DNA from: a virus
DNA: 33,973 nt
Strand: one strand, 5' to 3'
IMG/VR virus record: IMGVR_UViG_3300045970_000150
Coordinates: 1 to 33,973 of that record
The notes under the pieces were generated by a model that did no database searches, was not told the DNA's origin, and saw nothing but the letters and a program-made list of their open reading frames with translations. A program made the translations under genes and the position numbers. Shown piece after piece: positions 2,104 through 33,973 of this stretch (within the stretch, counting starts at the first letter, position 1; every line of letters starts with the position of its first letter).

Positions 2104-2703
2104 ATGAATATTCATCAAACTATAGTCGTTTACACATCCATTGTGGGTGGATTTGATCCGCCGCGCACGGATATTTTGAATTTTGACACGCCACCGCACC
2201 CGATGGGGACACCACGGTTGGAATCAAAGTATTTCAAAATGAACCCGCACCGAATTTTCACGCGCGCCATCACCATTTGGTTGGATGGCAACATCCATTT
2301 GAACGTGGATGAATCCCGTTTGGTGGATGACTTTTTGGGGGATGCCGACATTGGCGTGTTCCGCCATCCTTTCCGGCAATCCGTTTGGGAAGAATGTGAC
2401 GCGTGCATCACGTTGGCAAAGGATGACGCCGGGGTGATCCGCAACCAGTTGGCCACATACCGGCGCGCCGGATTCGGCGATGACATGGGGTTGGCCGAAT
2501 GCGGGGTGATCATCCGGCGAAATAACGAACGGGTGCGGGGATTCAACCAAATGTGGTGGTCACACGTTTGCCGCCATTCCATCCGGGATCAGATTTCATT
2601 CCCGTTTGTGATGTGGCAGAACCCGGACGTGAAAATCAAAATTAATGACGGAAACGTGCGCAATGACGCCCGGTTCACATATGTAAACCATTTAAAACCA
2701 TAA
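2104..2703 (+). CDS. DUF616 (TOD1/MUCI70-like) glycosyltransferase
   Basis: This 199-residue protein carries the hallmarks of the DUF616 glycosyltransferase family: an N-terminal YTSIVGGFD strand (9-18), WLDGNIHL (59-66), DIGVFRHPFR with WEEC (82-97), a GxxxxxGLxECGVIIRRN segment (123-140), WW (151-152) and RDQISFPF (161-168). Such enzymes transfer a sugar from a nucleotide donor. No membrane segment is present, so it should act in the cytoplasm. I placed the start at the ATG at 2104, which directly precedes the first strand; an upstream ATG at 2068 would add 12 poorly conserved residues. It opens a run of sugar and DNA modification genes that ends at the terminase. The acceptor cannot be read from sequence. 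Confidence 0.8.
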   Translation: MNIHQTIVVYTSIVGGFDPPRTDILNFDTPPHPMGTPRLESKYFKMNPHRIFTRAITIWLDGNIHLNVDESRLVDDFLGDADIGVFRHPFRQSVWEECDACITLAKDDAGVIRNQLATYRRAGFGDDMGLAECGVIIRRNNERVRGFNQMWWSHVCRHSIRDQISFPFVMWQNPDVKIKINDGNVRNDARFTYVNHLKP

Positions 2704-2704
2704 T

Positions 2705-3415
2705 ATGAAACCAACCATTGAAATCATTTTCGCCGAATTCGGCAACGTCAACGTGGACGTGGAACATTTCCGCCGGTATTTTCCAACGGCAACATTCAAA
2801 CTGATCACCAACCGGGATGCAAATTGTATCAATCCCATTGAAATGGGCGCACGTCCAAACGGATGGGATGAAATTATGGTGGTAAAAAACCATGATCCGT
2901 TCCCATCGGGATCAACCCGGTGGGGAAACCGCATGAATGATTACTGGAAAGCAAAAGGCATGTTGGATTCCACCGCGGATGTGGCCATTGCATTTGATGC
3001 GGACATGCGCATTGTGAGTGGCCAGGTCAGAACTATTGACGCATTGGCGTTAATTTTCGGGGTTGTGTTGCCGGCCAATTCCCGCATGTTGGCACGCGTG
3101 GATGCCACCATTGGCATGGACGGCGGTTTTATTGATGACAAATCCAACGGAAACGGGTATGCATTAAACTGCGGGATCATGGCCATGAGCATGCACCACC
3201 CGTTGGCCGTCAATGCGGTGCGCCGTTTTTGCCACAACATGATAAAACAACCCGCACGCGCGCCGATGGTGTGGTGGAAAACGTTTGTGGAATGCGGCCA
3301 TTCGCCGTGCCTTTTGCCGCAAAACTGGTGCGTGTGCGCGCCCGATGTGGGCATTGGCAATGAAATTGTGTTGCACATTGGTCACGAAAAGGTTAAAAAA
3401 CATTATGAATTATGA
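2705..3415 (+). CDS. Putative GT-A fold glycosyltransferase
   Basis: This 236-residue protein looks like a nucleotide-sugar transferase of GT-A type. It has an N-terminal alternating strand/helix region, then VAIAFDADMRI (residues 93-103), whose D-x-D is the usual divalent metal and nucleotide-sugar site. A later GYALNCGIMAMSMHHP segment is typical of the acceptor side of GT8-like folds. Five Cys lie in the C-terminal third. No signal peptide or membrane segment is present. It starts two bases after the DUF616 stop, and its own stop overlaps the methyltransferase start (ATGA at 3412-3415). I cannot assign a named family with confidence, and the donor and acceptor are unknown. Confidence 0.65.
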   Translation: MKPTIEIIFAEFGNVNVDVEHFRRYFPTATFKLITNRDANCINPIEMGARPNGWDEIMVVKNHDPFPSGSTRWGNRMNDYWKAKGMLDSTADVAIAFDADMRIVSGQVRTIDALALIFGVVLPANSRMLARVDATIGMDGGFIDDKSNGNGYALNCGIMAMSMHHPLAVNAVRRFCHNMIKQPARAPMVWWKTFVECGHSPCLLPQNWCVCAPDVGIGNEIVLHIGHEKVKKHYEL

Positions 3416-4980
3416 AAAACACATACATCACGGTGACGGATCAATTCTGTGGAGCCGGCGGCAGCTCACAAGGTGTTCGTAATATTTCCAAAATCAATGG
3501 GGGTGGCGTTGAAGTGAAACTGGCCTTAAATCATTGGAAGCTGGCCATAGAAACACACAACACCAATTTTCCGGAAACAATACATGACTGTACTGATATA
3601 TCAGCCAGTGATCCGCGCCGCTATCCTTCCACGGATATATTAATTACCAGTCCCGAATGCACAAACCATTCGTTGGCAAAAGGGGTGAAGCGGTCGCAAT
3701 CGCAGATAGATATGTTTGCGGTCGGCAAACTTGATCCGTCAGCAGAACGATCCAGGGCAACAATGTGGGACGTTCCACGGTTTGCGGAATATCACAATTA
3801 CAATTTGATTTTTGTCGAAAATGTAGTTGACGCCAGAGAATGGATCATGTTTGACGCATGGTTACAGGCAATGCATTTGCTTGGGTATAAACATAAATGT
3901 GTTTACATGAACTCCATGTTCTGTCATCCAACACCACAGAGTAGGGATAGAATGTACATTGTATTTTGGAAAAAGGGAAACAGGGAACCAAACCTTGATT
4001 TCAGACCTGATGCCAGGTGCATGAAATGTGAAATGGAAATTCAGGCGGTTCAACGATGGAAGAATCCTTCCAAACAGGCCGGAAAGTATAGAAAGCAATA
4101 CACATATGTTTGCCCGGTTTGTGCCAATGAGGTAACGCCATACTTTTATGCAGCATTCAATTGTATTGATTTCAGTAATATTGGAACCCGGATTGGTGAT
4201 AGAAAAAAACCGCTGAATGAAAACACCATCAAACGAATTGAGTATGGTTTAAAAAAATATGGATCACAGCCATTAAACGTGGTTCATTACACGCCAGGAT
4301 ATACCAAACCATTGTCTGACGTTTTTGGTACTTGCACGTCATCGGATCATCAATCAATAGTTCTACCATTTATCATTAATAATCAACAAACAACCGGCAT
4401 CAGTTTTCGCGTGAATGGTGTCGATGATCGTTTGCCTACTATTTCAACCCAACATGATTTGAATCTAATTACACCATTCATCCTAAAAGAGGAACATTCA
4501 AAGAATACAGAAATTTCCCGTGCAATTGGAGAATCATTACAAACGCAGACCACACGCCAAAGCATGGCACTTGCTATTCCTTACATCGTTCAAATGAATC
4601 GCACCGGCAATGCATTTCCGGTGGACAATGCACTTTCAACTGTGTTGGCCGGTGGAAACCATCACGGCATTGTCACGAATGAAGCCTGGAAAACCTTTAT
4701 AAGTTATTTCTATGGACAATCACAGGCATCCGGATTGGATGAATCAATTGGAACAGTCAGTACAAAGGATCGGTTTGCCCTGGTGAATTATCAGGAACCA
4801 AAGATTGAAGATTGTTATTTCAGAATGCTGAAGCCGCATGAAATCAAATTGGCAATGGCATTTGATCAGAATTACATCGTTTTAGGGTCACAAAAAGATC
4901 AGGTGAAGCAACTTGGTAATGCCGTGACGCCACCCGCAATGCAATGGCTGGTTCAAAGGGGAATTGAATCGTTACAATAA
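3412..4980 (+). CDS. DNA (cytosine-5) methyltransferase
   Basis: This 522-residue protein has the C5-methyltransferase motifs in order: motif I DQFCGAGGSSQG (10-21), motif IV SPECTNHS with probable catalytic Cys83 in place of the common PCQ, motif VI FVENVVD (134-140), motif VIII QSRDRMYIVF (176-185) and motif X QLGNAVTPP (500-508). A zinc ribbon (Cys203, 206, 234, 237) interrupts the region before the target-recognition part. It would methylate cytosine in a site not readable here. The SPECTNH variant is known from phage enzymes. Base and codon use differ from the flanking glycosyltransferase genes, with more A/T at third positions and fewer GCC/GTG/TTG runs, so it was probably acquired separately and inserted into the cluster. 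Confidence 0.93.
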   Translation: MKNTYITVTDQFCGAGGSSQGVRNISKINGGGVEVKLALNHWKLAIETHNTNFPETIHDCTDISASDPRRYPSTDILITSPECTNHSLAKGVKRSQSQIDMFAVGKLDPSAERSRATMWDVPRFAEYHNYNLIFVENVVDAREWIMFDAWLQAMHLLGYKHKCVYMNSMFCHPTPQSRDRMYIVFWKKGNREPNLDFRPDARCMKCEMEIQAVQRWKNPSKQAGKYRKQYTYVCPVCANEVTPYFYAAFNCIDFSNIGTRIGDRKKPLNENTIKRIEYGLKKYGSQPLNVVHYTPGYTKPLSDVFGTCTSSDHQSIVLPFIINNQQTTGISFRVNGVDDRLPTISTQHDLNLITPFILKEEHSKNTEISRAIGESLQTQTTRQSMALAIPYIVQMNRTGNAFPVDNALSTVLAGGNHHGIVTNEAWKTFISYFYGQSQASGLDESIGTVSTKDRFALVNYQEPKIEDCYFRMLKPHEIKLAMAFDQNYIVLGSQKDQVKQLGNAVTPPAMQWLVQRGIESLQ

Positions 4981-4987
4981 TTTTAAA

Positions 4988-5587
4988 ATGAAAAACATCA
5001 AAATCCAAATGGTGATGGCGCACCCGGATGATGAAATCATTTTTGGGTGGCCGGAACTGATGCACGACCGGTTGACATCCATTCTGATTTGCAGCGATGA
5101 CGCCGATAACCCGGAACGGCCATGGTGCCGACACCGGGGTGACGCCCTGGTGGAATTGGGCGCGTTGCTGAACATCCCGGTGCGCGCGTTGGCGTTCAAT
5201 TCCGAATTTTACCGGGCGGAAACCCGCGGGGAAACGTTGAAACGCATGATGCAATCCGTTACCGATGCCATTGATCCGGAAGCGGATGCCATTTTCACCC
5301 ATAATCCGTGGGGTGAATATGGCCATTTAGATCACATTATCATCCACCAGGCGGTCATGGCCACGGGCAAACCGGTGTTTTTCACCGACATTTTCGTGCA
5401 ATCCAATTGGATGCACATGCCAAACCGGCCGCACATCCCATGGATGCATGCCTACAATGCCCGGATTTCATTGCATTTTTACGACCATTTGCGGGCAATT
5501 TATGAACGTCACGGGGTTTGGACATGGAATCAGACACCGATCACGGAATGTTCCGTATATCTAACAAAACCAATTGACAAAATATGA
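4988..5587 (+). CDS. PIG-L / LmbE-family N-acetylglucosaminyl deacetylase-like protein
   Basis: This 199-residue protein has the two zinc motifs of the PIG-L/LmbE family: AHPDDE at residues 11-16 and YGHLDH at 111-116. The size is typical of the family. Members usually remove acetyl groups from N-acetylglucosamine-containing substrates such as GlcNAc-PI, bacillithiol or mycothiol precursors, and glycopeptides. I placed the start at the ATG at 4988, just after the methyltransferase stop and adjacent to the conserved strand; an upstream start at 4964 would overlap that gene. The stop overlaps the next glycosyltransferase as ATGA. The context suggests it trims an amino sugar laid down by the neighbouring transferases (inference). 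Confidence 0.85.
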   Translation: MKNIKIQMVMAHPDDEIIFGWPELMHDRLTSILICSDDADNPERPWCRHRGDALVELGALLNIPVRALAFNSEFYRAETRGETLKRMMQSVTDAIDPEADAIFTHNPWGEYGHLDHIIIHQAVMATGKPVFFTDIFVQSNWMHMPNRPHIPWMHAYNARISLHFYDHLRAIYERHGVWTWNQTPITECSVYLTKPIDKI

Positions 5588-6306
5588 AAGTGATCACGGC
5601 ATGCGACATCAATTTTCGCCACATGGTGGATGGTGCCATCAAAATGAACGCCCAATGCGGCGCGGAAACGTTGGTTTATAATTTAGGCGGGTTGGGCATG
5701 GGAAAACCCTTTGACATCACCGCCGACATGGCCATGATCCACAACGATCCCGGCGTGGTTTACACCGGCGCGGCCAAATCCAAATGCACGTTCAAACCGC
5801 GGATCATCCTGGATGCGATGCACGAAAACCCGGATGAAAAACATTTCGTTTGGGTGGATGCGGACGGGTTTTTGATAAAACCGGTCATGGATGTTTTTGA
5901 TAATGATTTTGATTTGGCGTTCACCATGCGGCGCACGGGTGAAAATCCGCATTCGGTCACGCCCATGTTTGACCAGTACATCAACGCCGGGGTGATTTTT
6001 GTGAAAAACACGGCGGCCGCGCGCAATTTCATCCGGTTGTGGATCAGTTTGATCCCGCACACGTCCACGTTGACGGATCAGCATGCGGTCAATGAATTGT
6101 TGGATAAAATGATAAAATGGAACATTTTTGATGTGCCGCAAAAAACATATTGGGGAAGCGTCATGTTGTTGACCACCGATGTGTTCAATTATTACTATTT
6201 CCCGGATGCACCACATGACAACGCCCGAATTTTACATTTCAAAGGCGAAATTAACCATGCCGCCGGTTATTTTGATCAGTATTTGGCCAAATATCTGAAA
6301 CCATGA
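5584..6306 (+). CDS. Putative nucleotide-sugar glycosyltransferase (GT-A, DxD)
   Basis: This 240-residue protein resembles nucleotide-diphospho-sugar transferases. KVITACDINF starts the first strand, HFVWVDADGFLIKP (residues 87-100) holds the metal-binding DxD, and QYINAGVIFVKN (131-142) followed by a DQHAVNELL segment (165-173) is a common signature of GT-A enzymes that hold an acceptor loop. No membrane segment is present. It is the last gene of the modification cluster. Both its ends overlap neighbours by ATGA (5584-5587 and 6303-6306), so it is co-translated with the deacetylase and the small terminase. The acceptor is unknown; DNA, protein or a lipid-linked glycan are possible. Confidence 0.75.
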   Translation: MKVITACDINFRHMVDGAIKMNAQCGAETLVYNLGGLGMGKPFDITADMAMIHNDPGVVYTGAAKSKCTFKPRIILDAMHENPDEKHFVWVDADGFLIKPVMDVFDNDFDLAFTMRRTGENPHSVTPMFDQYINAGVIFVKNTAAARNFIRLWISLIPHTSTLTDQHAVNELLDKMIKWNIFDVPQKTYWGSVMLLTTDVFNYYYFPDAPHDNARILHFKGEINHAAGYFDQYLAKYLKP

Positions 6307-6821
6307 AAGGACGAAAGAAAAAACCCACGGTGTTGAAAAAATTGTCCGGCACCGATCAGAAATGCCGGATTGATCCCAATGAAATGACCGGTGAATCCAT
6401 CACAAAGATTCCGCCGCCACCGCGTTGGTTTTCCAAAACGGCAAAAAAGATATGGCGCGAAAACACCCGCGCGTTGGTGGATTCAAAGGTGATCCAACAA
6501 TTGGACATGCAGATGTTGGCGGCATATTGCAATGAACTGGCCAAATACCTGGACGCCGAACAGATGATGGAACAGACCGGCGGCGCGGTGATCCATGAGG
6601 TCACCAAATATGGCACCCGCAAAATGGTCAACCCGTGGCACCGGGTGGCCATGGACGCATTGGACAAAGCCCAACGCATCGGATCGGAATTTGGGTTGAC
6701 GCCATCATCCCGCACCAAGGTGTCATCCATCGGGGATGATCCCGTTGATCCGTTCACCGCATTCATCCAACGCAAAAAGGACGTGATAAAACTGACGCCG
6801 GCAAAAACCAACCATGGATAA
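6303..6821 (+). CDS. terS: Terminase small subunit (P27 family, Terminase_4)
   Basis: This 172-residue protein fits the P27-type small terminase. It has a basic GRKKKP start, a PPPPRWFSKTAKKIWRE segment, a central helix pair with AAYCNELAKYLDAE, a GTRKMVNPW segment and the family's C-terminal GLTPSSRTK. The small subunit binds the packaging site on phage DNA and feeds it to the large subunit. The gene overlaps the upstream glycosyltransferase by ATGA and the large terminase by 8 bases, the standard TerS-TerL arrangement. No cos or pac site could be located by eye. Confidence 0.92.
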   Translation: MKGRKKKPTVLKKLSGTDQKCRIDPNEMTGESITKIPPPPRWFSKTAKKIWRENTRALVDSKVIQQLDMQMLAAYCNELAKYLDAEQMMEQTGGAVIHEVTKYGTRKMVNPWHRVAMDALDKAQRIGSEFGLTPSSRTKVSSIGDDPVDPFTAFIQRKKDVIKLTPAKTNHG

Positions 6822-8499
6822 AATTGAACAGACCATCACCGATTACATCAACGGGGTGATTTCCGGGCGCGTGCCGGCGGGGGAACTGATCAAAAAAGCG
6901 GTTCAACGTCACCTGGATGATTTAAAAAGCGCAACGCGCAAAAAAATGACGTTCAACAAATCGGCGGCAAAGCATGCCATTGAATTTTTCGCGTTTCTGA
7001 AACAATCAAAGGATGAATGGGCGGGGGAACCGTTTGTGTTGGAACCATGGCAAATGTTTGTGTTGTGGGTGGTTTTCGGTTGGTACAACAATGACGGCAT
7101 GCGGCGGTTTCATTACATCTATATTGAGGTGGCCAAAAAAAACGGGAAAACCACCTGGATGGCCGGTGTTGGTCTATATTGTTTCATTGCCGATGGCGTT
7201 AACGGCGCGGAAGTTTACACCGCGGCCACATCGCGCAACCAGGCCAAAATATGTTTCCATGAAGCGCAAAACATGGTGCGCCAATCCGATCCGTTGCGCC
7301 GCATCATCACCAATTACACCCACAACATGCACATCGGTGCCACCATGTCCAAATTTCAACCGCTTACGGCGCAATATGAATCCAATGAGGGGATCAACCC
7401 GTCATGCGCCATTGTGGATGAATTCCATGTGCATAAAACCACGGTGGTGTTTGATCTGATTAAATCGGCCATGGGTTCCCGCATGATGCACGGTTCACCG
7501 TCCATGTGGGTCATTACCACCGCCGGGTTTGACAAATCGTTGCCGTGCTATCAATACCGGCATTCATGCATCGAAATATTGAAGGGGATCAAACACCAGG
7601 ACAACACCGCGGTGTTCATTTATGCCATGGACGAGGATGATGATTGGCGCGATCCGGCCAATTGGCCAAAACCCAACCCGAATCTGAACGTTTCGGTGTC
7701 ATTGAAATATTTGCGGGATGAATTCCAAATGGCCATCAACCGCGGCGGTTCCGAGGCGGTGAATTTTAAGACAAAAAATCTGAACATGTGGGTGGATGCA
7801 CAAACCACCTGGATAAAGGATGACCAATGGTTGAAATGCGGCGGCACGATCAACATGGATGAACTGATTGGCCGTCCGTGCTATTTGGGGGTAGATTTAA
7901 CGGAAAAATATGACGTTTCCGCCCTGGCGTTGCTATTTCCGCCGCAAAAACCCGGCGAACGGTTCCTGGTTGTGTGGAAAATGTGGATTCCACAACAAAA
8001 AGTGATTGAAAAACAAGATTTTGTGGATTGGCGCGTGTGGGTTGAGGGCGGCCATGTGACCATGGTGGACGGCAATGTGGTGGATGATGATCTGATGATT
8101 GACGAAATTATGCATTGGGCGGGGTTGGTGGACATCCAAATGTTGGGGTTTGACGAGTGGAACGCCAAGAAATTCATCACCGATCTGATCAAACGGGGGT
8201 TCCCGGAAGAAAAAGTGGACAAAATCCCGCAAGTTTTCAGCCAGTTGAGTGAACCCACAAAATTTTTCTATGGGAAAGTTATTGACGGCCAGTTGTGCCA
8301 TGGGGACAACCCGGTGATCCGGTGGATGGTCAACAACGTGGTCATCAAAACTGACACCAACAACAACGTGCGCATTGACAAGGGCAAATCAAGGGAAAAA
8401 ATTGACGGCGTGTCCGCCGGGATCAATGCCATGGTTGTTTTTCTGAATGAAAACAACGGAAATTCAATAAATGACATCTATTCAGATAATGACCTATGA
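6814..8499 (+). CDS. terL: Terminase large subunit (HK97-like, Terminase_1)
   Basis: This 561-residue packaging motor has an N-terminal ATPase and a C-terminal nuclease. The P-loop is the unusual KKNGKT at residues 108-113. The Walker B strand is CAIVDEFH at 198-205 and the coupling motif VITTAGF lies near 233-239. The nuclease begins with YLGVDLTEKYD at 357-367, where Asp361 is a likely metal ligand, followed by GFDEWN further on. The length is normal for Terminase_1. It cuts concatemeric DNA and pumps it into the prohead through the portal. Its stop overlaps the next small gene by ATGA at 8496-8499. Confidence 0.95.
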   Translation: MDKIEQTITDYINGVISGRVPAGELIKKAVQRHLDDLKSATRKKMTFNKSAAKHAIEFFAFLKQSKDEWAGEPFVLEPWQMFVLWVVFGWYNNDGMRRFHYIYIEVAKKNGKTTWMAGVGLYCFIADGVNGAEVYTAATSRNQAKICFHEAQNMVRQSDPLRRIITNYTHNMHIGATMSKFQPLTAQYESNEGINPSCAIVDEFHVHKTTVVFDLIKSAMGSRMMHGSPSMWVITTAGFDKSLPCYQYRHSCIEILKGIKHQDNTAVFIYAMDEDDDWRDPANWPKPNPNLNVSVSLKYLRDEFQMAINRGGSEAVNFKTKNLNMWVDAQTTWIKDDQWLKCGGTINMDELIGRPCYLGVDLTEKYDVSALALLFPPQKPGERFLVVWKMWIPQQKVIEKQDFVDWRVWVEGGHVTMVDGNVVDDDLMIDEIMHWAGLVDIQMLGFDEWNAKKFITDLIKRGFPEEKVDKIPQVFSQLSEPTKFFYGKVIDGQLCHGDNPVIRWMVNNVVIKTDTNNNVRIDKGKSREKIDGVSAGINAMVVFLNENNGNSINDIYSDNDL

Positions 8500-10807: not shown

Positions 10808-12262
10808 ATGAAAAAAATCAATTTAACAAAATTTGTTGCCGCCGCCATCTTTGCGGTGATTGCAACCATGGCGTTTTGCGTCAACCCGGTGTTGGGTGCG
10901 GCCATTTTGGCCATACCGGGTGCCGGGGTGATGTCGGTCAAAACCGTCAATGTGCTGACCGAGCAACGCGGCGGTCTGATCACCCAATTGGATGAATTAG
11001 TCAAAAAGGCGGAAGGGGAAAAACGCGACATCAACGATGATGAAAATGTGATCATTGACCGCATCAACGGGGAAATCCAGGCGTTGAACACCGAAATTGA
11101 ACGCCGGACAAAACTGGAAGCGAACCTGGCCATTGCCGCCGGGGATTATATCAACAAGCGCAACCAGGAAATAGAAGACAAGGAACTGAAACAATTTTCC
11201 TGGTCAAAGTTTTTGCAGGGTGCCATGCGCAATGAATTAAGCGGATTTGAAAAGGAAATGCACATTGAGGCCGAACGCGAAGCAAGGGAAAGCGGTGTCA
11301 TTTTATCGGGTTTCGGCATACCGTCCAAGGTATTGGGAACGGGTGCCAATGCGGTGCGCCGCATGATGGAACGCCGTGATTTAACGGCCGGATCGGCCAC
11401 CAACATGGGTGATCTGATCAATCCCTATCCGATGACGTTCATTGATTCCCTGGTGGCCAAACTGGTCATGGTTGATCTGGGTGCCATCTTTATGAATGGC
11501 CTGGTGGGTGACGTTCCCATGAACAGACTGACCACCGGATCATCGGCCGCATGGGAAGGTGAAGTGGATGCGGGTGCCGAACAGAATCCCGGCATTGTCA
11601 ACACCAAAATGACGCCGCACCGTTTGGGTGCCTATGCACAATTGTCCAAGCAGTTGATTTTCCAAACATCGGGCGTGGCACAAACCATCGTTCAAAATGA
11701 CATTCAGCGCGCCATCCGCGTGGCATTGGAAGCGGCCGCCATCAATGGCGGATCGGGTAGTGAACCCGATGGCATATTGTCCACCACGGGCATCGGATCA
11801 ATCGTTGGCGGCCAAAACGGATTGGCACCCACATGGGCGCACATCACCGGATTGGAAACCGAGGTCGCAATAGACAACGCGGATGTTGGCACATTGGCCT
11901 ATCTGACCAACCCGAAAGCAAAAGGCAAATTGAAAAACACATTGGTGTCATCCACCACGGGCGTGTCATCCACCATGATATGGGGAACCAACGACAACAC
12001 GGTTAATGGATACCGTGCCGCCGTCACCACCAACGTGCCGTCCAACCTGGACAAAGGCACATCAACCGGGGTGTGTTCCGCCATCATATTCGGCAATTTC
12101 AATGACCTGGTCATTGGCAATTGGGCGGGATTGGACATCACCGTTGATCCTTACACCGATGCCAAAAACGCATTGGTGAATGTGATCGTGAATTCCTGGT
12201 GGGATGTGTTTTTGCGCAACCCGGCATCATTTTCCGCCATGAAAGATGCGCTGACCACCTAA
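10808..12262 (+). CDS. Major capsid protein (HK97 fold)
   Basis: This 484-residue capsid protein is preceded by an AT-rich leader without a Shine-Dalgarno. Residues ~60-120 are a charged coiled coil (delta/scaffold domain: LITQLDELVKKAE, DRINGEIQALNTEIERR) of the type removed by the adjacent protease. From about residue 200 it has the HK97 core, with NMGDLINPYPMTFIDSL, SSAAWEGEVDAGAEQ and LGAYAQLSKQLI. Unusually, residues ~9-43 form a long hydrophobic stretch (FVAAAIFAVIATMAF onward) that looks like a signal peptide or membrane anchor placed before the scaffold domain. A strong terminator follows the gene. Confidence 0.94.
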   Translation: MKKINLTKFVAAAIFAVIATMAFCVNPVLGAAILAIPGAGVMSVKTVNVLTEQRGGLITQLDELVKKAEGEKRDINDDENVIIDRINGEIQALNTEIERRTKLEANLAIAAGDYINKRNQEIEDKELKQFSWSKFLQGAMRNELSGFEKEMHIEAEREARESGVILSGFGIPSKVLGTGANAVRRMMERRDLTAGSATNMGDLINPYPMTFIDSLVAKLVMVDLGAIFMNGLVGDVPMNRLTTGSSAAWEGEVDAGAEQNPGIVNTKMTPHRLGAYAQLSKQLIFQTSGVAQTIVQNDIQRAIRVALEAAAINGGSGSEPDGILSTTGIGSIVGGQNGLAPTWAHITGLETEVAIDNADVGTLAYLTNPKAKGKLKNTLVSSTTGVSSTMIWGTNDNTVNGYRAAVTTNVPSNLDKGTSTGVCSAIIFGNFNDLVIGNWAGLDITVDPYTDAKNALVNVIVNSWWDVFLRNPASFSAMKDALTT

Positions 12263-20198: not shown

Positions 20199-22763
20199 AT
20201 GACTATGAAAAAAGCGGTTTTGATTTTGATTTTTTCGTTTGCATTCCTGGTGGGAAAATCCCAAACAAGCGATGCGGACATGTTGAATTATAATTCAACC
20301 TACATTTTTGATAACAACATGAATTTGGTGAAACCATCCATGGTTCATACCTTGTTTGACTATGTGATCAATAGTAAGATCAACAAGGATTCCACCTTTG
20401 AGGTGATCCGGTGGAACGGGTTGGACACGTTGGTGTTTTCCATCAAAGGGGTGCGCGACACGTTGGTGATCCCACCGGGTGTGTGGGGTGTGGATGGCAA
20501 TGACATCCACAACACCAATTCCGGGAAAACAACCCTATCCAATGCCTACATTTACCCGTTGCCGCCGGAATCAACCCCGCGCGCCATTGGGCGTGTGATG
20601 GGATTGGAAACCGATGGGCAAATAAAATGGAATCATTTGATTAAAGTATATGATGAAACCATGCGTGAATTGGCGGATTCCGGACGTGCCATCACGCCGG
20701 TTGGCAAAAAATGGGTGATTTTTGGGGATTCGTTTTCTCAATCCCTATCAACACAATGGCCGAAATATGTGATTAATACATTGCAATTAACTGGCACGGT
20801 AAGCAACGCAACACCCGGAAACCGGTTGGATGATCAGTTGGACACCTTAAATGCGCGGATTGCATCCGATCATGATTATTTGGAACAATTTAACATGTTG
20901 ACATTGATGGTTGGCATCAATGATTTTGCGCAAAACATCCCGTTGGGTAAATTATCGGATGTTGCGGGTTCGGCTACCTTTAGCGGATATTTAAAGTCAT
21001 TCATTGAAACGGTTTATTCCAATAATTCGGCCATTGAAATGTTCATCATGACCAATATTCAATGTTATAAACTGATTTATGCCGGCCGAAATTCGGACGG
21101 ATATAATTTGGAAGATATGGCCATCCGGATTTCTCAAATATGTGACATGTATGGGGTTTCGTGCGTTGATTTATACCATTGTTCCGGGATCAATTCAAAG
21201 ACATTCAAATACTATTTGGGCGTGGATAGTTTACACCCATCAACGGCCGGCAATGAACGCATTGCGGAAATAATGAATGATGCATTTGCATCAATTGAGG
21301 CGTTGCAAGGTCAATCATTAAATCATCAAAACATTGTGGTGGATGACAATATCGGAATTGGATTGAATCCATTGTCATCACTAACAACCGGAAATTATAA
21401 CATTGGAATTGGCAGTGGTGCGTTGAAATCCGCAACGACAAGTTTTTACAATATCGGCATTGGATTGGATGCCGGCAACAAAATAACCATGACCGGTTCC
21501 GGAAATGGGTTGGTTGCCATCGGTAAATTTGCATTGAAAAATTCAACGGTTGAAGCCATTGGCATTGGTCAAAATGCGGGATATCTAAACACAACCGGAA
21601 CAAATAATTTATTTATTGGCAGTGATGCCGGGTTCGTTAATACAACAAACCATTATCAAACCATTGTTGGGAATTTTGCGGCAATTTATGCAACGGGTTC
21701 AAACAACACCGGGTTGGGATATGCGGTTTTGCAGGGTTCAAACCCGGCAACGGGATATCAAAACACCGCGGTTGGATCGTTGGCATTATTCAAAAACACA
21801 TCCGGTTCCCGAAATGTAGGTGTTGGATATACATCACTATTCAATAATACAACCGGAACGGGTAGTGTGGCCATTGGTGATGGTGCGGGAAATTCAATGA
21901 TATCATCCGGGGAATTAACGGCCGTTGGCACGGATGCGTTGAACGCGGCCACCAATGAAAACACGGCCATTGGATCATCCGCCGGCAAATTAACAACGAC
22001 CGGTGTTTCAAATTTTTATGGCGGAAAACAAGCCGGATATTATAATTTGACCGGTGATAACAATATTTACATTGGAGCCAAAACCGGTTTATACAACACC
22101 GCGTCATATAATGTGGCCGTTGGTGGTTCCGCGTTGATGGGATCGGCGGGATCAAATGGTGCATACAATTCCGCATTTGGTTCACTGGCATTGAAAGTGA
22201 TCACCACGGGCGCGGGTAATTCCGTTTTTGGGTTCATGGCCGGATATACAAACGCAACGGGAAGTTACAACACATTTTTAGGTGCAACCGCCGGGTATTT
22301 AAGCACCGGCAGTTATAATGTATGGATTGGAAATGATGCGGGAAACAATAGCACATTCGCCGGGTTGTCAAATGTGGGTGGAATAGATGTGACAAATACA
22401 ACCACGCCGTTAATTCAATTTGATTTTGACATAGCTATTAGAAAAACCAAGATCAACGGCAATTTATCATCGGGTGTTGGCACCATCGCAGACAATGACG
22501 CCACCCCGGATGTATCAAAAGCAAATACGTTTATCTATAACGGTACGGCCAATTCGGTCACCGTCACCGATTTGGACAACCCGGTGGTGGGTTCTTACTA
22601 TACCTTTTGGGGAAATTCAAACACGTACACGTTGAATTTTGGCGCGGCCAATTTCATCATGGCCGGCGTGGGTGTCACTTTGGGCGAAGGTGACATGATC
22701 ATGTTCTTTTGCAAAGCAGACAACCAATATTGGATGTGTGGATATCAAAACAACACCCCGTGA
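20199..22763 (+). CDS. Tail fibre with SGNH/GDSL esterase domain and repeat shaft
   Basis: This is an 854-residue protein. The N-terminus (KKAVLILIFSFAFLVGKSQ) is a convincing signal peptide, odd for a virion protein. Residues ~165-365 form an SGNH hydrolase: VIFGDSFSQS with the catalytic Ser178, VGINDF (238-243) and GVDSLHP with the Asp343/His346 pair. From ~385 to ~720 runs a shaft of degenerate repeats with the pattern N-x-G-I/V-G-x-x-A-L/G (NIGIGSGAL, NIGIGLDAGN, NVGVGYTSL), resembling fibre and adhesin beta-repeats. The last ~110 residues form a separate beta-rich tip. The esterase probably deacetylates host surface polysaccharide during adsorption. Confidence 0.85.
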   Translation: MTMKKAVLILIFSFAFLVGKSQTSDADMLNYNSTYIFDNNMNLVKPSMVHTLFDYVINSKINKDSTFEVIRWNGLDTLVFSIKGVRDTLVIPPGVWGVDGNDIHNTNSGKTTLSNAYIYPLPPESTPRAIGRVMGLETDGQIKWNHLIKVYDETMRELADSGRAITPVGKKWVIFGDSFSQSLSTQWPKYVINTLQLTGTVSNATPGNRLDDQLDTLNARIASDHDYLEQFNMLTLMVGINDFAQNIPLGKLSDVAGSATFSGYLKSFIETVYSNNSAIEMFIMTNIQCYKLIYAGRNSDGYNLEDMAIRISQICDMYGVSCVDLYHCSGINSKTFKYYLGVDSLHPSTAGNERIAEIMNDAFASIEALQGQSLNHQNIVVDDNIGIGLNPLSSLTTGNYNIGIGSGALKSATTSFYNIGIGLDAGNKITMTGSGNGLVAIGKFALKNSTVEAIGIGQNAGYLNTTGTNNLFIGSDAGFVNTTNHYQTIVGNFAAIYATGSNNTGLGYAVLQGSNPATGYQNTAVGSLALFKNTSGSRNVGVGYTSLFNNTTGTGSVAIGDGAGNSMISSGELTAVGTDALNAATNENTAIGSSAGKLTTTGVSNFYGGKQAGYYNLTGDNNIYIGAKTGLYNTASYNVAVGGSALMGSAGSNGAYNSAFGSLALKVITTGAGNSVFGFMAGYTNATGSYNTFLGATAGYLSTGSYNVWIGNDAGNNSTFAGLSNVGGIDVTNTTTPLIQFDFDIAIRKTKINGNLSSGVGTIADNDATPDVSKANTFIYNGTANSVTVTDLDNPVVGSYYTFWGNSNTYTLNFGAANFIMAGVGVTLGEGDMIMFFCKADNQYWMCGYQNNTP

Positions 22764-25119: not shown

Positions 25120-26289
25120 ATGAAAACCCGCTATGTGCTTACATTCGGCCGCACCGGCATTGATGAGGTGGACAACACCGGTTTGGTTCAGTTGAAAATC
25201 TATTTTTCCCGCACCCACCGCATTTTCCGTTCCACCGGCGTGCGCATCACCGCCGATGCCTGGGATGACCGCCGCGGGGTGATCAAACCCAAATCGGCAA
25301 AACACATTCGCGACATGGCCGCCATCAACACCGTGATCCAACGGTTGGATCAGCACGAATTTGATCTGATCCGGGACGGCCGCGCCATGACCGTGGCCGA
25401 TGTGGATCGGATCATGCAACGCGGGGATGATCACCGCGTGTTCAATGCATTCATGGCCGCCGAAATGACGAAGGAAAACGCATTGGCACCATCCACCCGC
25501 CGATCCCATGGCAACACCATCCGGTTTTTCAATCTGTTCAACGCGCGGGTCACGTTTGCGGAACTGACGTTTGACACCATCCGGGAATTTGATAATTTTC
25601 TGCGGGAACAATCGTTGGCCGACAATACCATCCACGCCCACCACAAGCGCATCAAACGCCATATCCAATCCGCGGTTGTGCAAAACATCATCCGGGCGGA
25701 TCAGAACCCGTATAAGGGATTTAAAGCGGTGAAAACTCAAAATGAAATGGTGGCGTTGACCATGGATGAAATCAACGCGGTGGCCGCGCTGAATTATACG
25801 GGTTTTGTGCAGCTGGATTGGGTGCGGGACATGTTTTTGTTTTCGTGTTTCACCGGTTTGCGGTTTTCCGATGTGTCCGCCCTGGAAACCACCCACATCG
25901 AAACGTTGCCATCGGGCGGCCATCAGATCGTGTTGCACCGCATGCGCAAAGTGGCGCGCCCGGTGTTCATCCCGGTGGATCAATTGTTTAATGGCCGCGG
26001 GGAAACCATTTTAAAAAAGTACATGCCGCAATCCGGGGTCATTTTCCCGCCAGTGTCCAACCCGCGATGCAATGAACTGATAAAAATCATCGCGCGGGAT
26101 GCCGGCATCACCCGGCGCGTCACCTTTCACACCGGCCGCCATACATGCGCCACACAAATCGGCGCGAAAACCAACGATCCCATGCTGATCATGGGGATTT
26201 TGGGCATCACAAAGATGGAAACGGCCATGGTTTATATCAAACTTTCTAAAGAAATCATGACGGCAAAGGTGTCACAAATCAATTGGTGA
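25120..26289 (+). CDS. int: Tyrosine integrase (Bacteroidota phage/transposon type)
   Basis: This 389-residue recombinase has an N-terminal arm-binding region (to ~110), a SAM-like core-binding domain (~110-205) and a catalytic domain with Arg248 (TGLRFSDV), Lys277 (HRMRKVA), His337-x-x-Arg340 (FHTGRHT) and nucleophile Tyr372 (VYIKLS). The usual second His (L-G-H) is replaced by Ile363 in LGITKMETAMVY, an uncommon change at a position that normally helps orient the scissile phosphate; some active recombinases tolerate a change here. It follows the repeated 8-bp sites and a promoter box, as expected for a phage integrase next to attP. The 3' end is nearly flush with the convergent gene at 26293. 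Confidence 0.92.
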   Translation: MKTRYVLTFGRTGIDEVDNTGLVQLKIYFSRTHRIFRSTGVRITADAWDDRRGVIKPKSAKHIRDMAAINTVIQRLDQHEFDLIRDGRAMTVADVDRIMQRGDDHRVFNAFMAAEMTKENALAPSTRRSHGNTIRFFNLFNARVTFAELTFDTIREFDNFLREQSLADNTIHAHHKRIKRHIQSAVVQNIIRADQNPYKGFKAVKTQNEMVALTMDEINAVAALNYTGFVQLDWVRDMFLFSCFTGLRFSDVSALETTHIETLPSGGHQIVLHRMRKVARPVFIPVDQLFNGRGETILKKYMPQSGVIFPPVSNPRCNELIKIIARDAGITRRVTFHTGRHTCATQIGAKTNDPMLIMGILGITKMETAMVYIKLSKEIMTAKVSQINW

Positions 26290-30648: not shown

Positions 30649-31680
30649 ATGAAAAAAATTCTGATTGTCACACCCGTTCCGCATGATTCAACATCATTAT
30701 ACCGTGCATTTGGCGTGTTCCAAAACTTGAAAAAACACGCCGACATTGAACTGGTCAACCTGGCCGGCAACCCGTCCGTCACATGGGTTGATCTGATCCA
30801 GGCGGATATATTGTTCATGCACCGCCCGTTCCAACCGGCGCAATTGTCCCTGGCGCAATACTGCAGGAAATTGGGAAAACCGTTGTGGGTGGATTTCGAT
30901 GATGATCTGTTGCATGTGCCGGATCATATGACTTTTGCGCCCATTTACCAAAACCCGGAAAATATCAACGCCTTGGTGGAATGCACTAAAATGGCCGATG
31001 TGGTCACCGTGACCACCACCGGGTTGCGTGATGTCTATTCAAAAATCAATCCCAACGTGCAAATAATTCCCAATGCGCTGAATGATGATTTGTTTGGAAA
31101 AATGCGGGAAACCATCCCGGAAAATGATGAAAAAATAGTGGGGTGGCGCGGATCGGAAACCCATTTCATGGATTTGATGGTGCATGCCGATGCCATCAAT
31201 GCGGCCATCCAATCCACCCGGGGGCAGAAAAAGGCCACCATCATCAACATCAGATCGGGAAAAAACATGGTCAAACCATGGGAATGGGTGTTCATGGGGT
31301 TCCGCCCGTTTTTCATCAACGGCATCAAACACGTTCCGGTCAGCGATCCCATGCCATATTTTGAAAACATCCGCCGGATCAATCCCAAAATCATGATGGT
31401 TCCGTTGATTGACAACACGTTCAACCGGTGCAAATCCAACATCAATGCCATTGAGGCATATTTTTCCGGCGCGGTGCCATTGGTTCCGGATTGGCCGGAA
31501 TGGAACGTGCCGGGTGCGGTGAAATACAAAAACCCGGCGGAATTCGGCGCATTACTGGATGCGCTGATCCGTGGTGATTATAAACTGGAACAACGCGTGG
31601 CCGAGGGATGGAACTGGGTATGGGAAAACCGGTTGTCGGTGACCAATATCAAACGTGCCGAAATACTTAAAAACATTTAA
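30649..31680 (+). CDS. Glycosyltransferase, GT-B fold (GT4-like)
   Basis: This 343-residue protein looks like a GT-B glycosyltransferase. The first half (KILIVTPVPHDSTSLYRAFGVF, PLWVDFDDDLL, ADVVTVTTTGLRDVY) is the N-terminal Rossmann half with the common ADVVTV..T motif. The second half (KIVGWRGSETHFMDL, MVPLIDNTFNRCKSNINAIEAYFSGAVPLV) holds the usual S/K-N-x-x-x-E-A/Y-x-x-x-G-x-P donor-binding segment. It is cytosolic. It sits in the early operon, apart from the other sugar enzymes at 2104-6306, and its codon use matches the phage. Acceptor unknown. Confidence 0.82.
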   Translation: MKKILIVTPVPHDSTSLYRAFGVFQNLKKHADIELVNLAGNPSVTWVDLIQADILFMHRPFQPAQLSLAQYCRKLGKPLWVDFDDDLLHVPDHMTFAPIYQNPENINALVECTKMADVVTVTTTGLRDVYSKINPNVQIIPNALNDDLFGKMRETIPENDEKIVGWRGSETHFMDLMVHADAINAAIQSTRGQKKATIINIRSGKNMVKPWEWVFMGFRPFFINGIKHVPVSDPMPYFENIRRINPKIMMVPLIDNTFNRCKSNINAIEAYFSGAVPLVPDWPEWNVPGAVKYKNPAEFGALLDALIRGDYKLEQRVAEGWNWVWENRLSVTNIKRAEILKNI

Positions 31681-31681
31681 G

Positions 31682-32026
31682 GTGGCCAATTTCCCAAAAC
31701 AAAAACGGCGTTGGTGGCAACCCACACCGGTGGCACAAAGCGGCCGCCGGTTCACCAACCCATTTTATCAATCCAGGCAATGGCGCGCATTGCAAAAGGT
31801 GTTCAAAAAACAACACCCGTGGTGCGTGGAATGTGCCAAAAACGGATTTTCCATACCAACGGCCGTGGTGGATCACATCCGGCCGATCAACCAGGTGGAT
31901 GCCTATGACACCCAGGGCGGAACATATGGTCATCCATTAGAGTGGAAAAATTTGCAATCACTATGTGTGCATTGCCATGCCAAAAAATCCGGATGCGAAA
32001 GACACCAAAAAACCATAAAACCATGA
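31682..32026 (+). CDS. HNH endonuclease
   Basis: This 114-residue protein starts at the GTG at 31682, right after the glycosyltransferase stop, and has the HNH motif (VVDHIRPINQ, then WKNLQSLCVHCHAKKS) with zinc Cys pairs CVEC and CVHC. The FYQSRQWRALQKVF segment is typical of phage HNH nucleases that assist terminase or act as free-standing nucleases. It is separated from the terminase by the LRR and modification genes, which is less usual. A DNA nicking role is likely; partner unknown. Confidence 0.88.
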   Translation: MANFPKQKRRWWQPTPVAQSGRRFTNPFYQSRQWRALQKVFKKQHPWCVECAKNGFSIPTAVVDHIRPINQVDAYDTQGGTYGHPLEWKNLQSLCVHCHAKKSGCERHQKTIKP

Positions 32027-32460: not shown

Positions 32461-32563
32461 TTTTTGGGGATGGCCGCATATGACCATCATGGTGGTGTTG
32501 TTTGGTGTGGCGGTTTATTGCTTGATAATGGCAATTAGACAGAACAATGAGGACGGAATTTGA
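32450..32563 (+). CDS. Small single-pass membrane protein
   Basis: This is a predicted protein of 37 residues (or 47 if the ATG at 32420 is used) with one transmembrane helix (MTIMVVLFGVAVYCLIMAI) flanked by WGWPH and a polar RQNNEDGI tail. The frame overlaps the preceding gene's end and the start of recombinase 2. Start choice is uncertain. Such small membrane proteins are common in phage early regions. Confidence 0.5.
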   Translation: MQIDFWGWPHMTIMVVLFGVAVYCLIMAIRQNNEDGI

Positions 32564-33455
32564 AACATGGGTGGACGGGTTCATTGGTGACATGAACGCC
32601 ACGGTGGAAACGGTGAAAAACAACCGTTCCATCATGGCCATTTTCACCACCTGGTGCATGGTCAGCGGAATTCATCACAACACCATCACCCGCCCGGTGA
32701 TCATCCGGTTTAAAAATCACCTGGAAGAAACCGGCCACACGCCGTTGACGGTGGATTCCTATATGTCAACGGTCAAACGGTTCTATAAATGGACGGATGC
32801 CAACGCCGTATTTCCGGACGTGGCCGCCGGGGTGAAAACCAAAAACAACCATGGCGGATTCCGAAAAAAACCATTGGATGAAATCCAGGTGAAACAGTTA
32901 TTGGCCACCATTGACCGGGAAACGTTCATTGGCCAACGCAACGCCATCATCATTGAAACCATGTTGTGGTTGGGTTTGCGGTGCATTGAAATTCGCCGGT
33001 TGGACGTGGGGGATGTGGTGGCGATCCCGGCCGGGTTTGCGTTGTCGGTCATGGGAAAGGGTTGCCGGTTCAAAGTGTTGATGAAATTGCCGGATTATAT
33101 CCATGAAATGATTGTCAATTATTTGGCCATCCGAAACGCCATGCCGGATCAGCCATTATTTGTTTCTATATCCAACAACAACCGTGGCGGCCGGATCTCA
33201 ACGCGGAAAATTTCCATGATGATCAAAACACACATGCGCGGCGCCGGCATTGATTCGCCCGAATACACCGCCCATTCATTGCGTCACACATGCGGGGTCA
33301 TGATGATCAACGCCGGACGTGACATGAATGACGTGCGTGCCTATCTGCGACATACCAACACCAACATGACGGTGCATTATATCCGCTACAATGACGCCAA
33401 CCGGCGGTTGTTGGATAATTGGGTAGATCAGCAACGCCAAAAAATGAATAATTAA
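32547..33455 (+). CDS. Second tyrosine recombinase (XerC/D-like)
   Basis: This 302-residue recombinase has a full catalytic set: Arg145 (LGLRCIEIRRL), Lys171 (GKGCRFKV), His243-x-x-Arg246 (HSLRHT), His269 (LRHTN) and Tyr278 (VHYIRY). The N-terminal part (~1-100) is a compact core-binding domain without the arm-binding extension seen in integrase 1. It overlaps a small membrane gene and ends three bases before the LRR gene, suggesting a shared transcript. Candidate jobs are dimer resolution, DNA inversion or a second integration function. Confidence 0.92.
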   Translation: MRTEFETWVDGFIGDMNATVETVKNNRSIMAIFTTWCMVSGIHHNTITRPVIIRFKNHLEETGHTPLTVDSYMSTVKRFYKWTDANAVFPDVAAGVKTKNNHGGFRKKPLDEIQVKQLLATIDRETFIGQRNAIIIETMLWLGLRCIEIRRLDVGDVVAIPAGFALSVMGKGCRFKVLMKLPDYIHEMIVNYLAIRNAMPDQPLFVSISNNNRGGRISTRKISMMIKTHMRGAGIDSPEYTAHSLRHTCGVMMINAGRDMNDVRAYLRHTNTNMTVHYIRYNDANRRLLDNWVDQQRQKMNN

Positions 33456-33458
33456 GTT

Positions 33459-33973
33459 ATGAACCAAAAAAATAAAGTTATGTGCAATTTCTTTTCAGTC
33501 ATCAGCATGGGCAACGGTCACCCTCTATTTTTTGACCTTTCAAAACGGCAAAAACTTAGCCAGGACAACCCGGAAAATTATCAATTCGACAGCCATTCAT
33601 CAATTGCGTCATTTTTCCAAGTCAATGAAGACAAATCAAATAAATTTGAGTTTGATCCGATAACCGGTAAAATAATCATTGATCAGATCAATAATCCGGT
33701 AAATGATTGGAAATTGATTGAAAAATGGTTTGAAAAGTTTGATTTTCAAACATTATGGAATTCAGGTTTATTTGATTTTGACCTCAGTGGCCTGACCTCC
33801 ATTCCGGAAAATTTCAAAATGCCGGAAAGCATCGGCGGTTCTCTTTACCTCAGTGGCCTGACCTCCATTCCGGAAAATTTCAAAATGCCGGAAAGCATCG
33901 GCGGTTCTCTTTACCTCAGTGGCCTGACCTCCATTCCGGAAAATTTCAAAATGCCGGAAAGCATCGGCGGTTC
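33459..33973 (+). CDS. Leucine-rich-repeat protein, 5' part (continues at window start)
   Basis: The gene starts at the ATG at 33459 (or 33480) and is open to the end of the window. The first ~108 residues are a non-repeat domain (CNFFSVISMGN, DSHSSIASFFQVNED, FDPITGKIIID, LIEKWFEKFDF) recognisable as a head found in front of phage and gut-bacterial repeat proteins. It then passes into 22-residue LRR units (LSGLTSIPENF, KMPESIGG) encoded by identical 66-base repeats at 33783, 33849 and 33915. The final unit is cut by the window end and continues at base 35 in frame, giving about 213 residues in all. No signal peptide is present. The function is unknown, probably protein binding. Confidence 0.85.
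   Translation, partial: MNQKNKVMCNFFSVISMGNGHPLFFDLSKRQKLSQDNPENYQFDSHSSIASFFQVNEDKSNKFEFDPITGKIIIDQINNPVNDWKLIEKWFEKFDFQTLWNSGLFDFDLSGLTSIPENFKMPESIGGSLYLSGLTSIPENFKMPESIGGSLYLSGLTSIPENFKMPESIGG
33783..33973 (+). repeat. 66-bp tandem coding repeats (LRR units)
   Basis: Three DNA-identical 66-base units start at 33783, 33849 and 33915 (the last truncated by the window end), and one more almost identical unit plus a partial one lie at 1-107. They encode 22-residue LRR units. DNA-level identity, not only protein-level, implies recent duplication or ongoing slippage. The assembly broke inside them. Confidence 0.95.

Follow-up and report, generated by a model that had tools for sequence, protein, structure and literature searches.

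Glycosylation of the tailed-phage virion has been demonstrated in few groups, mainly mycobacteriophages. Passages in two papers (PMC11600133 and PMC12619734, both citing Freeman 2023) describe the mycobacteriophage capsid and tail tube as modified by phage-encoded transferases. The arrangement given there, tandem phage transferases beside a methyltransferase gene, is also that of the locus described here, which lies in a window of 33,973 bases comprising an entire IMG/VR record. The mycobacteriophage product is a known glycan on capsid and tail-tube proteins and these passages mention no PIG-L step, whereas the window carries a PIG-L gene and a transferase (GT2705) with no annotated relative, and its acceptor is a proposed one. 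In the chlorovirus PBCV-1 virus-encoded transferases likewise act on the major capsid protein, and a second window transferase (GT5584) resembles PDB entry 2p6w in fold (TM-score on the target 0.68); PBCV-1, however, is a virus of a eukaryotic alga with an unrelated capsid, and the identity to GT5584 is about 15%.

Pelagimyophage glycan islands were interpreted as O-antigen modification (PMC7029224). Such islands in pelagimyophages and cyanophages (PMC7029224; Synechococcus phage S-SCSM1) share with the window clustered DUF616-type and other transferases, but they are large, include sugar-nucleotide synthesis and are read as modifying the host O chain, whereas the window set is compact and lies beside the terminase. 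Campylobacter phage IBB_35 shares a phage LmbE/PIG-L gene and radical SAM genes; its LmbE-like gene was proposed to degrade host polysaccharide (PMC3322345), whereas the window PIG-L is tied to three transferases.

The window and its glycan genes

The first and last 34 bases of the window are identical (1–34 and 33940–33973) and form part of a 66-base tandem repeat, whose array spans 33781–33973. It is therefore very likely that the window represents a complete circular genome. The array is part of a leucine-rich-repeat-like gene, and the contig was probably cut there. The closest relative, contig L097, keeps the gene order of the window across the end junction (integrase, then cassette, then terminase). 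The window encodes a tailed phage whose head genes are of HK97 type, together with a tape measure, tail proteins and two tyrosine recombinases (25120–26289 and 32547–33455, both within this one small genome and both conserved in L097), so the phage is probably temperate. A tail-spike or fibre-like protein (20199–22763) has a signal-like N-terminus and a GDSL esterase domain and is a candidate host-glycan esterase.

The evidence for a Bacteroidota host is indirect. Among the nearest prophage terminases are those of Prevotella and Porphyromonadaceae (35–37% identity) and one from a member of the Eubacteriales (38%), and A-rich sequence with no evident ribosome-binding sites stands before the start codons. 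A search for Bacteroides-type promoters gave one site, which is not above chance.

The genes considered are listed below.

2104–2703, + strand: DUF616 (TOD1/MUCI70) glycosyltransferase, short form (PF04765, E = 1.1e-18)
2705–3415, + strand: GT2705, GT-A glycosyltransferase with a GT6-like fold (predicted model; A-x-D-x-D invariant in the homologue alignment)
3412–4980, + strand: C5-cytosine DNA methyltransferase (PF00145, E = 4.7e-25)
4988–5587, + strand: PIG-L (LmbE-type) de-N-acetylase (PF02585, E = 2e-8, 35.4 bits, cut-off 28.2)
5584–6306, + strand: GT5584, GT-A glycosyltransferase, GT34/GT8/GT6-like (PF05637, Glyco_transf_34, 1.2e-6; PF03407, Nucleotid_trans, 1e-5)
6303–6821, + strand: terminase small subunit (TerS), downstream neighbour (PF05119, 7.8e-21)
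6814–8499, + strand: terminase large subunit (TerL; phrog_9, 4.8e-158)
10808–12262, + strand: HK97-type major capsid protein, putative acceptor (phrog_617, 6.8e-61; TIGR01554, 6.3e-27)
30649–31680, + strand: GT-B glycosyltransferase (phrog_7162, E = 1.9e-28)
31655–32026, + strand: HNH endonuclease, found shortly before the terminase in related prophages

A sequence-only reading of the window had described five co-oriented genes before the terminase. All five were found on the + strand, each backed by Pfam except GT2705, which has a modelled GT-A fold. With TerS and TerL they form seven near-gapless genes (2104–8499), mostly overlapping by a few bases. The DUF616 protein belongs to its family (68.1 bits, cut-off 21.4), the match covering the C-terminal half of the profile only; the short form is also present in L097, L091 and L102. 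GT2705 gave no match in Pfam, PHROG, NCBIfam or PDB sequences. Its AlphaFold model (pLDDT 89.9) was closest in Foldseek to the retaining GT6 α1,3-galactosyltransferases (E = 5e-9), a likeness of fold only, at 8–13% identity and with no placement in GT6 by sequence profile. Foldseek matches of GT5584 were glycogenin, BoGT6a and the PBCV-1 capsid glycosyltransferase, and its W-x-D-x-D motif is invariant across homologues; the aspartates of both DxD motifs picked out in the sequence-only reading do not vary among the homologues. The PIG-L protein is a family member in which the zinc-site motifs AHPDDE and THNPWGEYGHLDH (GHLDH-type) are conserved in the alignment; its start is most likely at 4988 rather than 4964. 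As the sequence-only reading had noted, no convincing membrane helix was found in any cassette protein, the highest hydropathy (1.61) lying within the GT2705 fold.

A gene at 1188, formerly labelled deoxyribosyltransferase-like, does exist and matches DUF7768 (phrog_355) instead. The stretch 994–1191 encodes what looks like the remnant of a DNA methyltransferase, a shortened N-terminal part that matches phrog_757 over 54 residues.

The cassette in related phages

Contigs with cassette genes were reached through IMG/VR homologues of DUF616 and of PIG-L. Scans of IMG/VR with a single GT5584 or GT2705 protein gave no relatives and alignment queries were required; the GT2705 alignment retrieved 34 viral contigs. 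No GT2705 was found in 84,980 bacterial and archaeal genomes (GTDB scan, based on short conserved patterns that may miss distant members). In 50,697 phage records GT2705, GT5584 and the other cassette queries were unmatched at the sensitivity used, the exceptions being DUF616 and one partial PIG-L, and megablast of annotated phage records gave no close relative of the window. GT2705 appears to be a virus-only transferase family, having been found in viral contigs only.

L097, with a TerL 58% identical to that of the window, has the same order, DUF616-GT2705-PIG-L-GT5584, minus the methyltransferase and with GT2705 and PIG-L overlapping. Cassette and core genes have diverged about equally between the two (37–58% identity). 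All four genes are present in L093, L103 and L143 in the rotated order GT2705-PIG-L-GT5584-DUF616, and three-gene sets occur in L091, L099, L101 and L102. PIG-L was found, as one copy each, in 13 of 18 GT2705 records tested; of the five others, one contig ends inside the cassette and four are a single marine group. GT2705 was recovered independently when records were retrieved by PIG-L or by GT5584, and the check named beforehand, whether related phages carry DUF616 and PIG-L together, came out positive. Since other phages repeatedly hold the four glycan genes as a group, the cluster is more than a chance assembly and of pathway size, as had been suggested; these genes, leaving the methyltransferase aside, are by their joint inheritance across contigs a real conserved module.

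The GT-B gene at 30649 lies elsewhere, as the sequence-only reading had it, but probably belongs to the pathway as a fifth member, since in L091 its homologue neighbours DUF616, standing shortly before it. In that contig GT-B, DUF616, GT2705 and PIG-L come a short way behind the capsid gene, and in L097 GT-B occupies the same position before HNH as in the window.

Several cassettes contain further genes. Radical SAM (SPASM-like) genes are embedded in those of L090, L094, L101 and L102. In L110 an APS kinase/cytidylyltransferase-like gene (985–1827) in the GT2705-PIG-L cluster suggests possible further decoration of the glycan, and in L102 a GroEL-like chaperonin gene (4676–6025) lies between the capsid gene and the glycan cassette.

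The methyltransferase and DNA modification

The methyltransferase alone differs in base use, in agreement with what had been noted from the sequence: its codon use gives z = 17.5 against 0.4–1.8 for the other cassette genes, and its GC content is 0.42 against 0.48–0.51. GT2705 and PIG-L, which it separates in the window, abut or overlap each other in L091, L097, L104 and L106. PF00145 was found in only two of 17 cassette records, and the methyltransferase shows no consistent linkage to the transferases. Because of this foreign codon use and rarity we judge it to be a passenger, inserted later between GT2705 and PIG-L.

This bears on a reading in which the cluster methyltransferase makes 5-methylcytosine for hypermodification of the phage DNA. 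Glycosylated bases are known in phages, the methyltransferase does lie inside the cluster and L097 also has a C5-methyltransferase, although a different one, beside its cassette. The enzyme is nevertheless foreign in codon use, sits between genes adjacent in relatives and is nearly absent from the other cassettes. A Pfam scan of most window genes gave no TET/JBP, hydroxymethylase or thymidylate-synthase-like entry enzyme. The lack of a TET/JBP or hydroxymethylase-type gene had been noted beforehand and was again observed; the absence of a Tet_JBP match in the window and 17 relatives is a weak argument, the positive control having been silent. A thymidylate-synthase family was found in only two of 14 relatives. 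With the window apparently a complete circle an entry gene is unlikely merely to lie off the contig, although many relatives are fragments. A route from 5-methylcytosine to sugar on DNA was rejected as the main reading, the methyltransferase being a passenger and no entry enzyme having been found (TET control silent); we regard it as highly improbable.

Position among head genes and the proposed acceptor

The cassette was found in the head module in all seven smaller-genome lineages examined, linked to virion morphogenesis genes of different families, the placement having been assessed visually in a fairly small set of contigs and with no formal null model. It precedes TerS in the window and L097, lies between TerL and portal in L180 and next to the portal in L103, between portal and capsid in L145 (whose GT2705 member is distant), between capsid and connector in L093 and the L101 group, and after the capsid gene in L091 and L102. 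The capsid families are phrog_617 (window), phrog_267 (L091), phrog_1328 (L102), phrog_10 (L093) and phrog_212 (L145); the capsid candidate of the L101 group is phrog_24071, a phrog of unknown function, and the portal of L103 and L180 is phrog_10963. In two related Bacteroidota prophages HNH stands shortly before the terminase, while in the window the cassette block intervenes between HNH and TerS. The transferases are phage-encoded and soluble, as in virion-protein glycosylation systems.

That unrelated phages repeatedly carry this set amid their head-building genes makes the particle, and not the DNA, its most likely target. The sequence-only reading had left DNA, a virion protein and a host glycan as acceptors; repeated head-module placement favours the virion option, and the later insertion and near absence elsewhere of the methyltransferase speak against the DNA option. 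On the sequence evidence we consider a virion protein the rather probable acceptor. Acceptor, sugars, order of steps and benefit are inferred from gene content and location. DUF616, GT2705, PIG-L and GT5584, with the probable GT-B, would form a virus-specific cytoplasmic pathway positioned for expression with the packaging and head genes. Acting in turn, the transferases would assemble a short glycan on a protein of the virion, with the major capsid protein as the likeliest acceptor: one would add an N-acetylhexosamine, PIG-L would strip off its acetyl group and leave a free amine, and a further transferase would extend or cap the deacetylated sugar. The proposed benefit is a change in the surface charge of the particle or in how it is recognised. 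Comparison of the capsid proteins gave no shared acceptor motif and no obvious common Ser/Thr-rich segment.

The main rival is that the cassette alters a host surface glycan (lipopolysaccharide or capsule), either in the lysogen or during infection, and so keeps out competing phages or conceals the host. Three points give it this rank: the phage is temperate, with its two tyrosine recombinases, an integrase precedes the block, and similar islands have been so read (PMC7029224). The block follows the integrase in the window and L097, a usual site of lysogenic conversion genes. Homologues in large phages lie in glycan islands with epimerases, sugar-nucleotide enzymes and many other genes, away from the head genes; this and the integrase-adjacent site count against the virion reading, as does the possibility that insertion sites in late operons draw in cargo of unrelated function. 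The GDSL esterase domain of the tail protein indicates that host surface glycans matter to the phage. On the other side, the cassette has no flippase, bactoprenol transferase or membrane transferase and does not resemble serotype-conversion (gtr) clusters, its genes overlap or abut one another and the terminase, and it occupies the head module in different phage lineages. We consider host-surface modification unlikely, but a serious candidate.

In thiol biosynthesis, small glycosides are substrates of PIG-L enzymes. By that precedent, and with the virion acceptor a proposed one, the cassette might instead produce a small glycoside that diffuses, or act on some cytoplasmic target outside the virion, as in counter-defence. 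The best match to the mycothiol deacetylase MshB scored 16.5 bits (cut-off 224), however, no ligase partner of a mycothiol- or bacillithiol-type pathway was found, and the head-module placement would be left unexplained; we give this reading little chance.

If a virion protein is the acceptor, the recurrence of this compact cassette in head modules of unrelated environmental phages, with a viral-only transferase family and a dedicated deacetylase, would suggest that particle glycosylation is commoner and of richer chemistry than known, and the cassette offers a sequence marker for finding cultivable examples. Tentatively, and with less confidence than in the acceptor itself, it may be a mobile modular capsid-coating pathway of many uncultivated, unrelated phages, with a core of virus-only transferase and amine-exposing deacetylase and lineage-specific add-ons (radical SAM enzymes, methyltransferases, the L110 APS-kinase-like gene) that would make the sugar coat chemically tunable.

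PIG-L domains were also observed in other settings. In Thiohalocapsa phage MD04 (L006, 7437–8501) the domain is joined to a tail-fibre-like N-terminus, and in L155–L157 and similar IMG/VR loci PIG-L matches lie inside very long reading frames of about 1,200 residues; perhaps these represent a second, virion-borne use of PIG-L.
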